Source: a virus. Taken from it: DNA of 26,982 bases. Location of the stretch: the IMG/VR virus record IMGVR_UViG_3300030060_005199, positions 1 through 26,982 of that record; one strand, written 5' to 3'. The notes below the pieces were generated by a model, which saw nothing but the letters and a program-made list of their open reading frames with translations, ran no database searches and was not told where the DNA came from. Position numbers and translations under genes: made by a program. Positions 5,240 to 13,931 of this stretch are shown piece by piece. Positions within the stretch are counted from its first letter, which is position 1. Each line of letters opens with the position of its first letter.

Positions 5240-5268
5240 TATATACTACGGTGACAACATATTGTCAA
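5240..5268 (-). promoter_or_regulatory. strong sigma70-type promoter
   Basis: On the minus strand TTGACA (5268-5263), 17 nt, TATATA (5245-5240). The TGA stop of the 168-aa gene (5267-5265) lies inside the -35 hexamer. The initial bases after -35 (ATATGT) and after -10 (GGA, then CTTATG) match the promoter at 7195-7167, so the two share an origin. It drives the operon 5208-4140. Confidence 0.85.
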
Positions 5269-5771
5269 GCCCCAACGGCTTCGTCTTTATCATCGCGCAG
5301 AATGCGGACTATTTCTTCAACCGGCGTCAAGTCGAGCCCGATATGTTCAGCCGAACCACGGAAGCGGTTGAGCCACGCGGCCAGTGCCACGCCAGCCTGC
5401 CGCCGCAGTTCTTCTTGCGACGACTCGTCGTCAGGGTCAAACGGTTCATAGCCGCCGCCCTCTTTACGTTTAGCTACCGGCGATATGTATGCCGGATACT
5501 CAGCGACCTTGATTGACACGACATCACTTTGCTGGACCTCTTCCTGCTTAACCACGATCCGTAGTCCGCTGGCCATGCGCCGTGCCATGTCGATACGCCA
5601 GTTACGCGCCGCCGTGCTATCATCCACGCCATAAAATGCGTCATACATTTCATGTTCCGGCTGGGTTGCCAGCCAGTCCACAAACTCATCGGCCTTGAAT
5701 ATATTATAACCAGTAGCTTGCAGATAATCGTCGATTATCCGCTGCTTGGTTTTTCTTGCAAAGTTACTCAT
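5265..5771 (-). CDS. conserved 168-aa phage protein downstream of the GGYNN array
   Basis: A 168-residue protein with ATGYNIFKADEFVDWLATQP near residues 19-38 and WRIDMARRMASGLRI near 58-72, then an acidic linker (FDPDDESSQEELRRQ) and a C-terminal helix. I recall proteins with the ATGYN.F.ADEFV.WL pattern in prophages but know no function. ATG 5771 has GGAGGAG 3 nt upstream. The gene lies directly 3' of the non-coding GGYNN array and in the same apparent transcript as the RAMP-like gene, with no promoter or terminator seen between them. It is therefore a candidate partner of that system. Its stop codon is embedded in the next promoter. Confidence 0.7.
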   Translation of the reverse strand: MSNFARKTKQRIIDDYLQATGYNIFKADEFVDWLATQPEHEMYDAFYGVDDSTAARNWRIDMARRMASGLRIVVKQEEVQQSDVVSIKVAEYPAYISPVAKRKEGGGYEPFDPDDESSQEELRRQAGVALAAWLNRFRGSAEHIGLDLTPVEEIVRILRDDKDEAVGA

Positions 5772-5790: not shown

Positions 5791-6340
5791 TTAACCGCGC
5801 CAAGCCAAGCCATGTCTAAAGTAACCTTTCCACGCCATGACCGCCTTGCCACACCAAAACACAACCCGTCTTACTCCGACACACCCCAACTGAACCGCCT
5901 TGCCAAGCCGCACCACGCCGTGCCCAACCGGAACATAACCGACCTCACCAGACCTTACCAAAACCGCCCTACCAAGACGTAACGCACCTGACCAAAACAA
6001 ATCAATCCTCGCCTCAACCGCCTTTCCAGACCTTATCCAACCGAACCTTACGAGACCCAGCCGAAACGCACCATGACCGCCTTACCTAGCCGTGCCTCAT
6101 CCAGCCCTTCCAAAGCCAACCAAACTGTAACTGACCCCGCCTCAACCGCCGTGACATGCCATGCCTATCCCCACCCCAACTCAAACCACCCTAACACGTC
6201 TCTCCACAACCGACACAACGCGGCGCACCTGACCTGTCCTGCCCTCATCTCTCCCAACCATAACCGTCTTACCTTGCTAAAACTTGCCACATCCAAACAA
6301 AACTCGCCGGACCTTATCTCAACCGTCTTTCCGCAACCCG
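5791..6340 (-). repeat. non-coding array of phased GGYNN pentamers in eleven units
   Basis: Read on the minus strand, the stretch is almost wholly made of 5-nt blocks of the form GGYNN. By hand I count 85 blocks: 79 start with G and 54 with GG. Every so often the phase slips by one base at a tetranucleotide GRCG followed by GTYNN, so headers read GGCGGTTGA, GGCGGTCAT, GACGGTTAT and so on. Units start at 6327, 6268, 6214, 6200, 6150, 6081, 6022, 5968, 5899, 5870 and 5845, and the last ends at 5802. Lengths are 59, 54, 14, 50, 69, 59, 54, 69, 29, 25 and 44 nt. Nine of the eleven equal 9+5k exactly (k=1 to 12); 50 and 25 are one base over. The last block before a header is usually GGNAA. No unit repeats another exactly. 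The 5-nt period excludes coding. A remnant header (GGCGCGGTTAA) ends the array just before the 168-aa gene. Confidence 0.9.
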
Positions 6341-6341
6341 C

Positions 6342-6362
6342 GGCGGGGGAAGAACCCCCGCC
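6342..6362 (-). other. perfect hairpin at the 5' border of the array
   Basis: GGCGGGGG (6362-6355) pairs with CCCCCGCC (6349-6342) around a TTCTT loop, 8 bp without mismatch. No T tract follows, so it is not a standard terminator. It lies 9 nt after the stop of the RAMP-like gene and about 15 nt before the first array header. It may be a processing site, a stability element or a protein-binding handle. Confidence 0.7.
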
Positions 6363-6370
6363 TATATTGG

Positions 6371-7129
6371 TTAAGCAGCCCTCCGCAACCGCTCTTCTTG
6401 TAAGAACTGCATTAGTTCTGCTGTTTCCTGATCCGCGCACTCTGGATTGTCACGCGCTAGCTCCTGAACCTCGCGGCCCTCTTGCATAAGCTCGTCCCAC
6501 AACTCTTGGTATTCGCCAAGTTCTTCACCAGCGATAGAGAATGTACCGAAAGACCCACGGCCTTTTTCCTGACGGAAATCGCCAAGGCCGATTAGTTGTC
6601 CGGCATTCTGTACAAGAGAAGAGATAGAACGTGCGCTGAAATTAGGTGTAGCAAACCGGATTTCTACTTCGGCGCACCAGTTAGGAAGATAAGCACGAGT
6701 ACGCATATCCGGTGTGCGGTTCATGTCCGCGGACCGTACCACGTCAATTTTGAGGTATGGCTTGCCCCAGATATTTATATTTGTCTGTGGCAAGAAGATA
6801 AGCCGGTTGACGCTGGTCTTGTTTACGCCAGCCGTTTCAAGCGCCGCCGTAGCCATTGCACCCTTTACGCCAGCCGCTGGAAAACACAAAAGCGTGTCAC
6901 CTTTTGGTTGGGTGTGCATGGAGTCGGCAAACTCCTGTTCCGGATTATGTTTGATTTCTTTCTTTTCAGCCGCAGTCTTGCGGCCTGCGCCAACGAGTAA
7001 GTCCCGTTTAGCTTTTGCCGACATACTGTTGAAGTACATCGGGGTCTGTCCAATCAAGCGGATTTTGATTTGGCCCTGCTTGATGACTGGGATGCTGATT
7101 GCATCATTAGTCTTTTTTGTAGCTGCCAT
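6371..7129 (-). CDS. RAMP/Cas7-like RNA-binding protein (inferred)
   Basis: A 252-residue protein. Two segments resemble RAMP (Cas5/6/7 superfamily) signatures. FPAAGVKGAMATAAL (residues 83-97) fits the iPgSSlKGalR motif, and GLGDFRQEKGRGSFGTF (181-197) fits the C-terminal glycine-rich loop (GxG..G.G.fG). The N-terminal IKIRLIGQTPMYF could be the first strand of a ferredoxin-like fold. RAMP proteins bind RNA, and Cas7 forms helical filaments along guide RNA with a regular nucleotide period. The C-terminus (after residue 200) is acidic and helical. ATG 7129 has GGAG 6 nt upstream. The gene follows a strong promoter and precedes a hairpin and the period-5 array on the same strand. The family assignment is by motif only and needs a profile or structure test; no CRISPR repeats or other cas genes are present. 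Confidence 0.6.
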   Translation of the reverse strand: MAATKKTNDAISIPVIKQGQIKIRLIGQTPMYFNSMSAKAKRDLLVGAGRKTAAEKKEIKHNPEQEFADSMHTQPKGDTLLCFPAAGVKGAMATAALETAGVNKTSVNRLIFLPQTNINIWGKPYLKIDVVRSADMNRTPDMRTRAYLPNWCAEVEIRFATPNFSARSISSLVQNAGQLIGLGDFRQEKGRGSFGTFSIAGEELGEYQELWDELMQEGREVQELARDNPECADQETAELMQFLQEERLRRAA

Positions 7130-7166: not shown

Positions 7167-7195
7167 TATATAGTCTTACTACTACATATTGTCAA
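7167..7195 (-). promoter_or_regulatory. strong promoter of the RAMP-like gene and array
   Basis: On the minus strand TTGACA (7195-7190), 17 nt, TATATA (7172-7167), then GGATAATTCTTATG. It closely resembles the promoter at 5268-5240. It lies immediately after the terminator at 7200-7235. Confidence 0.85.
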
Positions 7196-7199
7196 GCAG

Positions 7200-7235
7200 A
7201 AAAAAATACCCCCAGAGTCGTGCGAACTCTGGGGG
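7200..7235 (-). terminator. rho-independent terminator
   Basis: CCCCCAGAGT (7209-7218) pairs with ACTCTGGGGG (7226-7235), 10 bp with a 7-nt loop, followed on the minus strand by TATTTTTTT. It ends the operon 8169-7302. Confidence 0.9.
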
Positions 7236-7248
7236 CTACTACGGGAAC

Positions 7249-7301: not shown

Positions 7302-7598
7302 TCAAGAGAAATCGTCACCATGAATTAATTCTTCTAACTCTTCGTCGGTCATGTTTTCAAAGTCCATGTCTTCAAAGCGTTTTTTCTTCTTCACGGGGTA
7401 ACGCTTCACAGAAATTTCATCTAATTTTTTGATAGGATCACCCATGATGTCGTCCAGTTTGACCACTTTAGTTTCTAAAGTTTCTATTGTGGAATACTTA
7501 TGACCGCACGTTAAACACTGCCGGTGACGGCGTGTTGTATCTCCAAGCGGCCTGCTATTGTAGACCTTACTCTTTCCCTGACACTTCGGGCATATCAT
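7302..7598 (-). CDS. NrdR-like zinc-finger protein without ATP-cone
   Basis: Start set at ATG 7598, with GGGAGAG just upstream; a longer frame would have no good start. The 98-residue product begins MICPKCQG, then VYNSRPL, RRHRQCLTCGHKYSTIET. These match the N-terminal zinc ribbon of NrdR (CPxC, then RRRRxCxxCgxRFTTyE), the repressor of ribonucleotide reductase genes. Full NrdR is about 150 residues and carries an ATP-cone after this finger. Here the remainder is a basic then acidic tail (KKKKRFEDMDFENMTDEELEEL) with no ATP-cone. It could bind NrdR boxes without nucleotide sensing, or act on another target. Its start overlaps the upstream zinc-ribbon gene. Confidence 0.7.
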   Translation of the reverse strand: MICPKCQGKSKVYNSRPLGDTTRRHRQCLTCGHKYSTIETLETKVVKLDDIMGDPIKKLDEISVKRYPVKKKKRFEDMDFENMTDEELEELIHGDDFS

Positions 7599-7728
7599 TT
7601 TTCTCTCCCTGACAGCAATCTGATATGACCATCTTGCATACCGAACATTGATAGTGCCCGTGAACCTCGACGGGCGGCGCGGCAGTATGGCACCGTGGGC
7701 AAAGCCCATCTTTTATCAAACGCCCCAT
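7567..7728 (-). CDS. 53-aa zinc-ribbon protein
   Basis: ATG 7728 has AGGGTG upstream; a GTG at 7755 in the same frame is less likely. The product MGRLIKDGLCPRCHTAAPPV continues EVHGHYQCSVCKMVISDCCQGEK: CPRC and CSVC form a zinc ribbon, with a further CC pair. Its 3' end overlaps the NrdR-like gene by 32 nt. Small zinc ribbons like this are common in phages and usually unstudied. Confidence 0.65.
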   Translation of the reverse strand: MGRLIKDGLCPRCHTAAPPVEVHGHYQCSVCKMVISDCCQGEKNDMPEVSGKE

Positions 7729-12324: not shown

Positions 12325-13863
12325 TTAAAACGGGGCCTCCTCTTCCCTGCCAAAGTCTGGCGTTTTGAGTTCTAGCTCAACGGACTCGTATGCAGGTATT
12401 TTCCATACTCTCACTGGCCTCCCTTTTATTTTAAGAAGAGTGCTCTCTCCTCCCAGATCACGGAGCCGTTGAGCTATCTTGTAAGGCTTATATTCAAAAA
12501 ACTTGTTACGTTTCAAAAAAGCCTCAAAATCTTTCAATCTAAAATATGTGACGTTGGCCTCTTCATCGGTCCAAGGCCGCTTTAGTAATATCTCTTCACG
12601 GTCTTTTGCCTTTTGTAAATGAGCACAGAACTCTTCTAAGTAGTCGTAGAATTGACCGCTTGTGCTAGCATCCTCTGCCACGTCGATAATCGCGCTCTCG
12701 TTTGCAGCCATCTCCCGCATCAACCCGCCTATGCGTCCTTCCCACACCTGCTTACTGACAGAGCGTGGCATGAAGTTGAGTTGCTCCATGCAGGCTTTCT
12801 GAAATGTCGGCTGGCTCATAAGCCCTTCGGTGTCCAGTTCAACCGGTTCGCCGTTTACATCCAGAAACCACACTGGTGGGTTAGAGTTGTATTTTCGTAA
12901 ATTAGCTATGGCGGCACCCTGTATAGCGGCACCTATGCCATGTTTGCGTGTCTGGCATAGCTCTTTATTACAGTGCGCGTTGATAGGCGCATCGCTACAC
13001 CGGTAGGCGTAATCCTTTTTCTCAAGCTGTTTAGCCACAATGTTGACCTCGTTAAGAGGCAGAGGCGGCTCCAGATACTGCATATTGTAGTTTAGTATCT
13101 CAGACTCCCAGCTATCGGGGTAAGCTTTGCGTAGATATACGCCTATGTTAAACAAACCGTTGTTGCGCCCACCCTCAGATATTTTGTTCTTGATTAAGAA
13201 CTGTAGGCACGGCGGCCCATCTTTCATGTTGGACGTTTCAGGATCGTCGGTTATTTGTAGCTTGATAAGCTGTTCTGGTGTCTGCTTATGAGTCTCGTAA
13301 AGCTCAAAGAACTCCTCAAGCGTAGCAGATGTGCCGTCGTTTTTAATTGCGTAGCGTAACCCATCTTCTGCATCATAGTACGGCAGGTTCAGAAAGTTAC
13401 CTACGTCGTCGCGGTCAAGATGCAACTTGACCTGCTTTGGAAATATCTCACTGCCGCCGTACCCTAAAGCGGCTGAAACCTGTTGCAGTGTTGACTGCAT
13501 ATCTTTCGCATCTACCCATTCTGTTGCGAACAGGAAGCAGTGTGCGCCGCCAGATTTGGAGCGGCACACCACAAGAGGTAATTTAAGCTTACGGATCTTC
13601 TCAACGAGCACTTTATGGTCCAGAGGATATTGGTCTACGTCAACACAACCCCAGACACACTTGTTGTCCTCATTGATCGGTATGATACCAATACCACGAC
13701 CCGTGCCAGCCAGATGCCCTTCCCACAGTTCCTTGGTCCGTGGTTCGCGCACGATAGCGGCCCGTCCGGTATTCTTACCGTTAGCTTGCTGTTTCTCTAC
13801 TCTGTATGTGCCATACGCAAGACGCAGGCCATCAAAGATGGATGAAAACTTATCTACTGACAT
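12325..13863 (-). CDS. archaeo-eukaryotic-type primase with C-terminal PriCT-like region
   Basis: A 512-residue protein from ATG 13863; a TTG at 13878 is less likely. The N-terminal half has AEP primase motifs: the DxD metal site in GCVDVDQYP (about 72-80), the SGGAH motif (104-108), EIFPKQ (139-144) and NFLNLPYY (156-163), a pattern I associate with TOTE-type primases. Next comes a PriCT-like helical region (EGGRNNGLFNIGVYLRKAYP), then a Cys cluster (YRCSDAPINAHC, then KELC) that may bind zinc, and a C-terminal winged-helix-like part. It likely makes primers for the family A polymerase in the same operon. There is no helicase domain, so unwinding must come from another protein such as the UvrD-like neighbour. 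Confidence 0.85.
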   Translation of the reverse strand: MSVDKFSSIFDGLRLAYGTYRVEKQQANGKNTGRAAIVREPRTKELWEGHLAGTGRGIGIIPINEDNKCVWGCVDVDQYPLDHKVLVEKIRKLKLPLVVCRSKSGGAHCFLFATEWVDAKDMQSTLQQVSAALGYGGSEIFPKQVKLHLDRDDVGNFLNLPYYDAEDGLRYAIKNDGTSATLEEFFELYETHKQTPEQLIKLQITDDPETSNMKDGPPCLQFLIKNKISEGGRNNGLFNIGVYLRKAYPDSWESEILNYNMQYLEPPLPLNEVNIVAKQLEKKDYAYRCSDAPINAHCNKELCQTRKHGIGAAIQGAAIANLRKYNSNPPVWFLDVNGEPVELDTEGLMSQPTFQKACMEQLNFMPRSVSKQVWEGRIGGLMREMAANESAIIDVAEDASTSGQFYDYLEEFCAHLQKAKDREEILLKRPWTDEEANVTYFRLKDFEAFLKRNKFFEYKPYKIAQRLRDLGGESTLLKIKGRPVRVWKIPAYESVELELKTPDFGREEEAPF

Positions 13864-13931
13864 GTACGTTCCCCGCAAAAAAGATGAGGCGGCAAGGGCA
13901 TAGCAGCCAACACCCTTACCACCCCAACTGT

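Follow-up and report, generated by a model that had tools for sequence, protein, structure and literature searches.

The 26,982-base IMG/VR virus fragment analysed here (the window) carries a gene for a 252-aa protein that is followed by a long tandem of GGYNN pentamers, and the question raised by this locus is what kind of system the two form and what the array is directed against. A sequence-only reading of the same DNA had regarded the protein as RAMP-like and the pair as a candidate new system, a claim that cannot be upheld because systems of this kind have already been published as VIPR (PMC13142463). As described in the part of that report that was available, VIPR combines a RAMP protein, Vipr, with guide RNAs of alternating GGY and NN (PMC13142463; bioRxiv 2026.04.26.720920), of which NN alone pairs with DNA, with one target base skipped between successive NNs. 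The guides comprise 9-16 GGY/NN repeats with hypervariable NN, the minimal locus includes a vap accessory gene, type II is represented by Escherichia phage SUSP1 and a Pseudomonas fulva prophage, and seven types and 'staggered arrays' are distinguished (PMC13142463). The best explanation of the window locus, held with high confidence, is a VIPR system in a marine phage with nine back-to-back guides, three of them against active-site motifs of integrases and Prim-Pols; its expression, binding and silencing are inferred.

Organisation of the locus

On the minus strand, the order is terminator, promoter, 252-aa gene, hairpin, 530-nt GGYNN array and 168-aa gene (Table 1). A gene for an NrdR-like zinc ribbon protein (7302-7709, minus strand) lies directly upstream of vipr, with the terminator, which insulates the vipr unit from it, in between. 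The promoter, the gene and the perfect hairpin 3' of it, all pointed out in the sequence-only reading, were found again; the promoter is missing from a strict promoter scan because its -10 element ends in A, and the hairpin has no U tract on the transcribed strand.

Table 1. Coordinates of the vipr locus in minus-strand order, with the NN pairs of the guides and the motifs they decode to
Feature	Position	Strand	Basis or content
Intrinsic terminator	7208..7236	-	12-bp stem, T-rich tail, z -4.2
Sigma-70-like promoter TTGACA-N17-TATATA	7167..7195	-	Seen in sequence
vipr gene, 252-aa RAMP protein (phrog_4652)	6371..7129	-	Gene call, profile search, structure model
Perfect hairpin between vipr and array	6342..6362	-	Lacks a U tract
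vrRNA array of nine single-guide units, GRCGGTYNN(GGYNN)k	5791..6327	-	Period test, HMM, unit lengths
Guide unit 1	6269..6327	-	GA AA CC GA TT TG GT AA TT AA AA
Guide unit 2	6215..6268	-	AT TG GA GA CA CA CA GC GC GT; common to many relatives
Guide unit 3	6151..6214	-	GT GA GT AG GG GA GG GG TA AT AT AC = Prim-Pol motif VDVRGDGGYII, sense
Guide unit 4	6082..6150	-	
Guide unit 5	6023..6081	-	AT GC TC TG CT AA TC TG AA CT AA = tyrosine recombinase box II LRFHDLRHEAI, antisense
Guide unit 6	5969..6022	-	
Guide unit 7	5900..5968	-	TT AA CT GA CG AT CC TG AC GT GC TT AA = P4-type integrase motif KATVHGMRSSF, antisense
Guide unit 8	5846..5899	-	CA GG GT GG AA GG GT TT GT AA
Guide unit 9	5791..5845	-	AT GT AA TA TA AT TT TT ..; ends with GGTTAA
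168-aa gene, candidate vipr-accessory protein (Vap)	5265..5771	-	Follows the array in 66/66 loci

The five-nucleotide period described earlier is borne out by the number of GG pairs at lag 5 in the array (39, versus 17.1 +/- 3.7 in dinucleotide shuffles; z 6, with 0/1000 shuffles reaching 39), by counts that are also high at lags 10, 15, 20 and 30, and by a GGYNN HMM that marks 5792-6321 (minus strand) as the only such stretch within the window. Tandem Repeats Finder reported no array at this stretch and an Rfam search gave no match; all that the units have in common is a 9-nt junction and the GGY scaffold. The division into eleven units, nine with lengths of 9+5k and two odd, could be reproduced, and the odd lengths come from two false boundaries, GTCGGTTAT at 5943 and GACGGGTT at 5870, both of which are ordinary in-phase pentamers that had halved units 7 and 8. 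With these boundaries removed the array has nine units, and each of the eight that are closed (59, 54, 64, 69, 59, 54, 69 and 54 nt) is exactly 9+5k long, with GRCGGTYNN followed by GGYNN repeats. As the sequence-only reading suggested, each GRCG-to-GRCG unit behaves like a single guide.

The same rule is seen across the clade, where, of 594 distances between successive junctions, 499 fit 9+5k (4 mod 5) and a further 65 are 3 mod 5, as expected for one missed junction. Clade units hold 6-16 NN (mode 9-10), and the phase slip, which occurs about once per 55 nt, drops one base in 519 of 611 cases. Other compact arrays also have a one-base slip, mostly as GGCA-GG.

The 252-aa protein is a Vipr with a RAMP fold

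A family profile of the 252-aa protein retrieved PDB entry 36pp, 'SUSP1 Vipr protein', with an E-value of 1.8e-30, versus only 0.031 in a single-sequence search, and an hhalign comparison of the family with SUSP1 Vipr gave a probability of 99.5%. The AlphaFold2 model (pLDDT 90) has CRISPR Csm3/Cas7 as its best Foldseek matches, and comparison with these proteins gave Z 10-11. The RAMP-like character first suspected from motifs is thereby confirmed, and the protein is a Vipr, homologous to that of SUSP1. As a positive control, the GGYNN HMM recovered the four arrays of SUSP1, of which one precedes and three follow vipr, matching the published locus (PMC13142463).

Conservation of the gene, the array and the 168-aa neighbour

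Relatives were represented by 80 fetched loci with a protein at 66-100% identity to the window's 252-aa protein. Examination of their 3' flanks with the HMM, as the sequence-only reading had proposed, revealed a phased array directly 3' of the gene and on the same strand in 74 of the 74 relatives whose contig extends past the gene. The array is followed by the 168-aa gene at all 66 loci with enough DNA, even at those where all other neighbours from the window are absent; therefore, the three elements (vipr, array and 168-aa gene) move together as a cassette. Beyond this clade, a scan for seven GGYNN repeats found arrays in at least 120 other viral stretches, many adjoining a homologue of the window protein. 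At several such loci (among L082-L201), arrays flank the RAMP homologue gene on both sides. Among cultured phages, the Gordonia phages Ecliptus (L400, OP820472.1, 3128-3336) and UmaThurman (L401, NC_031249.1, 3086-3398) have a homologue followed by a GGYNN array, and gp40 of UmaThurman, annotated as a protein, sits inside that array.

The 168-aa protein is a candidate Vap of unproven function. It is unrelated to SUSP1 Vap1 (hhalign probability 0.2%), a search for nuclease families in it found none, and a structure search with its model (pLDDT 77) gave no significant match and no recognisable fold. In the model, helices are accompanied by a small beta part, and winged-helix DNA-binding proteins are among the best matches, none of which is significant. 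Distant homologues of this protein adjoin other VIPR genes and arrays (L140, L189, L143, L169, L201, L136, L155 and L157).

Targets of the window guides

The guides were decoded by the published one-nucleotide skip (NN-x-NN). The query from unit 5, its first nine pairs (AT GC TC TG CT AA TC TG AA), has 25 exact matches in viral contigs, of which 24 fall within tyrosine recombinase genes (PF00589 confirmed for two of them), every one antisense and in frame on the catalytic motif FHDLRHEAI, with the skipped base at the wobble position; the same pairs in reversed order have no match in the viral contigs. The full 22-base guide is matched in 10 of the 24 sites, which span 15 synonymous sequences. 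With the variation of the relatives allowed, unit 3 has at least 120 matches, and 78 of 80 loci checked are in frame on DVRG[DE]GGY of Prim-Pol proteins; one target contig encodes a PF09250 Prim-Pol as well as integrase, terminase and portal proteins. The core of unit 7 is present in a P4-type integrase of Chromohalobacter, where 23 of the 26 bases of the full guide match. Read in this way, three window guides spell conserved active-site motifs of two tyrosine recombinase families and of Prim-Pol, keeping the reading frame and skipping the wobble base.

An identified target is missing for the other six of the nine guides, and an exact one-skip scan of viral contigs with unit 2 returned no match. 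Two of the three genome matches of the unit 7 core were judged to be chance, as were its two matches in viral contigs, both in the same non-integrase sequence, and a P4-type guide from relatives had no match in 369 genomes from the class to which Chromohalobacter belongs. One of the target-bearing temperate phages (L395, 70-1770) encodes, adjoining its integrase, a large protein whose start resembles an ART-PolyVal ADP-ribosyltransferase, just under the curated cut-off. The window's own primase gene (12325-13878, minus strand) has a TOTE-type archaeo-eukaryotic primase domain (PF22548) and does not belong to the Prim-Pol family targeted by unit 3.

Controls and the pairing rule

Because one motif hit brings many homologous genes, the hit numbers above are not independent events; the weight of the target evidence lies in the frame, the wobble alignment and the identity of the genes. 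When 250 clade guides were compared with 66 integrase proteins, 13 matched with at most one wrong codon, and at the same threshold neither reversed or shuffled guides against these integrases nor real guides against unrelated ORFs gave any match. Counting against the explanation, the 250 guides showed no excess over shuffles in about 1.5 Mb of ordinary phage loci at skips of 0-4. No match was found between the window guides and the window itself, and PF00589 and PF09250 were absent from 17 VIPR-bearing records including the window (records that may be incomplete).

These comparisons also bear on how the guide is read. The class 1 CRISPR RAMPs read their guides nearly contiguously, and a contiguous or, alternatively, a pentamer-spaced pairing in place of one skipped base could be imagined here; at the DNA level, however, integrase loci show an excess of matches at skip 1 only and none at skip 0, 2, 3 or 4, and specific binding was reported only for the one-nucleotide skip in the accessible part of the VIPR study (PMC13142463), so that either pairing is considered barely credible. 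The earlier proposals that target information resides only in the variable bases, and that gapped queries should be held against shuffled controls, were well founded, real guides exceeding both reversed and shuffled ones in the integrase sets. The idea of discontinuous pairing likewise holds as far as the gapped reading goes, but successive NNs lie one skipped base apart on the target (NN-x-NN) and not at pentamer spacing.

Evolution of the arrays and the guide repertoire

The same unit occurs between different neighbours in different phages, and units therefore move as cassettes. Different units retain GGY and vary freely in NN, whereas in homologous units the two NN positions change in 5.6% and 11% of cases versus 15.7% for each of scaffold positions 2 and 3 (mostly G/T and C/T); since unit pairs are not independent, no p-value is given. 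Both observations are what would be expected if NN is the message.

This pattern helps to weigh the possibility that the array is merely a low-complexity DNA element (e.g., a replication origin or a packaging or recombination site) with coincidental motif matches. Such sites are frequent in phage genomes, and the strong G/C skew and simple composition of the array are in keeping with one. Nevertheless, the array accompanies vipr into different genomic contexts, its NN positions are conserved while the scaffold positions drift, and its in-frame matches reach 24 integrases and 78 Prim-Pols versus none for the reversed guide. A low-complexity element is hence given almost no credence, being already refuted by the controls unless these are biased.

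Of the 251 distinct guides, 43 can be assigned by motif; they are spread over 43 of the 75 arrays, and one or more integrase guides occur in 36 arrays. The classes tested are integrase box II, P4-type integrase and Prim-Pol; the others come from motif recognition or from single matches with at least one wrong codon. The decodings to HGGxSTG zinc-finger, FHVxRHT, RVPLS, SF3 and RepA-like helicase motifs are accordingly no more than leads. Guides in the arrays of L001, L005, L007, L012, L028 and L029 decode to LHGG[FA]STGP[KR]T, which we take to be the HGGxSTG motif of prophage proteins, and guides of L001, L034, L035 and L077 decode to [IM]WRRIRLVPF and VIDTLARSF, which resemble SF3 and RepA-like helicase motifs. 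For a guide of L001 and a guide of L077, a single Prim-Pol ORF each fits with one wrong codon. On balance, it seems somewhat probable that the guides of the marine VIPR clade are an inherited, shuffled repertoire against amino-acid motifs of integrative elements, namely the active sites of integrases from several families, of Prim-Pol and probably of helicases.

Relation to known systems

Four features of VIPR are present in the clade: a Vipr belonging to the ancestral RAMP family, GGY/NN guides, a wobble-aligned one-base skip and a candidate accessory gene (66/66 loci). The window system shares with that of SUSP1 a homologous RAMP protein, tandem GGY/NN guides, a one-nucleotide wobble skip on either strand, carriage by a phage, a small neighbour gene and targets in competing elements. 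Unlike SUSP1, for which the available text describes separate RNAs of about 100 nt with a structured tail, the window guides lie back to back with a GRCGGTY slip, and no such 3' tail was seen in the array, only GRCGGTY between abutting units. The window protein is also longer (252 versus 195 aa) with a C-terminal helical extension, the neighbour gene is unrelated to Vap1, and the guides are directed to integrase and Prim-Pol catalytic motifs. The absence of both a structured tail and Vap1 speaks against type II, and the system may be one of the other six types or the 'staggered arrays', to the extent that the accessible text defines them.

CRISPR-Cas class 1 is similar in the fold of its Csm3/Cas7 RAMPs (Z 10-11), in a glycine-rich loop and, by inference, in an oligomeric RAMP on a guide RNA. 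In contrast, the window has a single RAMP, discontinuous pairing and no repeat-spacer array, and the CRISPR-Cas hallmark of near-identical direct repeats with spacers between them is not met. TIGR-Tas, according to the part of its description consulted (PMC12045711), resembles the window system in RNA-guided DNA recognition, a tandem array and occurrence in phages among others, but as far as is known it has a different array and a different protein family, the window protein having a RAMP fold. The kind of system is thus known. Novelty may lie in what the guides are directed at, namely the first two codon positions in catalytic motifs of genes that are hallmarks of temperate and integrative elements, in that the portion of the VIPR main text available mentions wobble alignment and targets in satellites and prophage regulators but not targeting of catalytic motifs (PMC13142463).

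Proposed mode of action

Expression, RNP formation and silencing in the window phage are inferred by analogy. One transcript starting at about 7160 would cover vipr, the array and the 168-aa gene and, as inferred from SUSP1, would be cut into vrRNAs at or near the slips. Vipr protomers would then coat each guide, about one per pentamer, presumably gripping GGY, and the complex would bind double-stranded DNA with a matching sequence that belongs to a temperate rival or another integrative element sharing the cell. This binding would silence the integrase and replication genes of the target, an inference from the SUSP1 VIPR as far as it is described (PMC13142463). Since a guide specifies only the first two bases of each codon in a catalytic motif, a single guide covers many gene versions, both synonymous and diverged.

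The same complex with the same targets could instead act through the 168-aa protein to destroy the target rather than silence its transcription. This gene is an obligate neighbour unrelated to SUSP1 Vap1, and predicted nuclease or helicase Vaps occur in VIPR types III-V; yet the protein has no nuclease family, its helical model has only insignificant winged-helix matches, and nuclease Vaps are tied to host defence islands and not to phages in the part of the source available (PMC13142463). Destruction is therefore thought unlikely, and silencing remains the preferred outcome. As to the opponents, the guides might serve defence against superinfecting temperate phages rather than resident prophages or satellites, and the examined target-bearing contigs do resemble temperate phages in having genes for an integrase, a terminase, a portal and replication. 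However, prophages and satellites carry integrase and Prim-Pol just as typically, and SUSP1 guides, according to the accessible text, target satellites (PMC13142463). Superinfection defence is a real possibility that falls somewhat short of even chances, and it need not exclude use against resident elements.

Implications

The data support the noncontiguous code of VIPR from sequence alone, with matched controls, in a clade that differs from the one used in laboratory work, and they suggest a use for that code, the targeting of conserved protein motifs across synonymous variation. The one-base phase slip is a possible rule for cutting compact arrays into guides. Guide-to-gene predictions are ready for laboratory phages, and GGYNN arrays in viral metagenomes become readable as lists of enemies. 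If the proposed reading is true, a lytic phage would hold a broad-spectrum weapon against temperate rivals and satellites without prior contact with every one of them, because a wobble-skipping guide addresses a protein motif.
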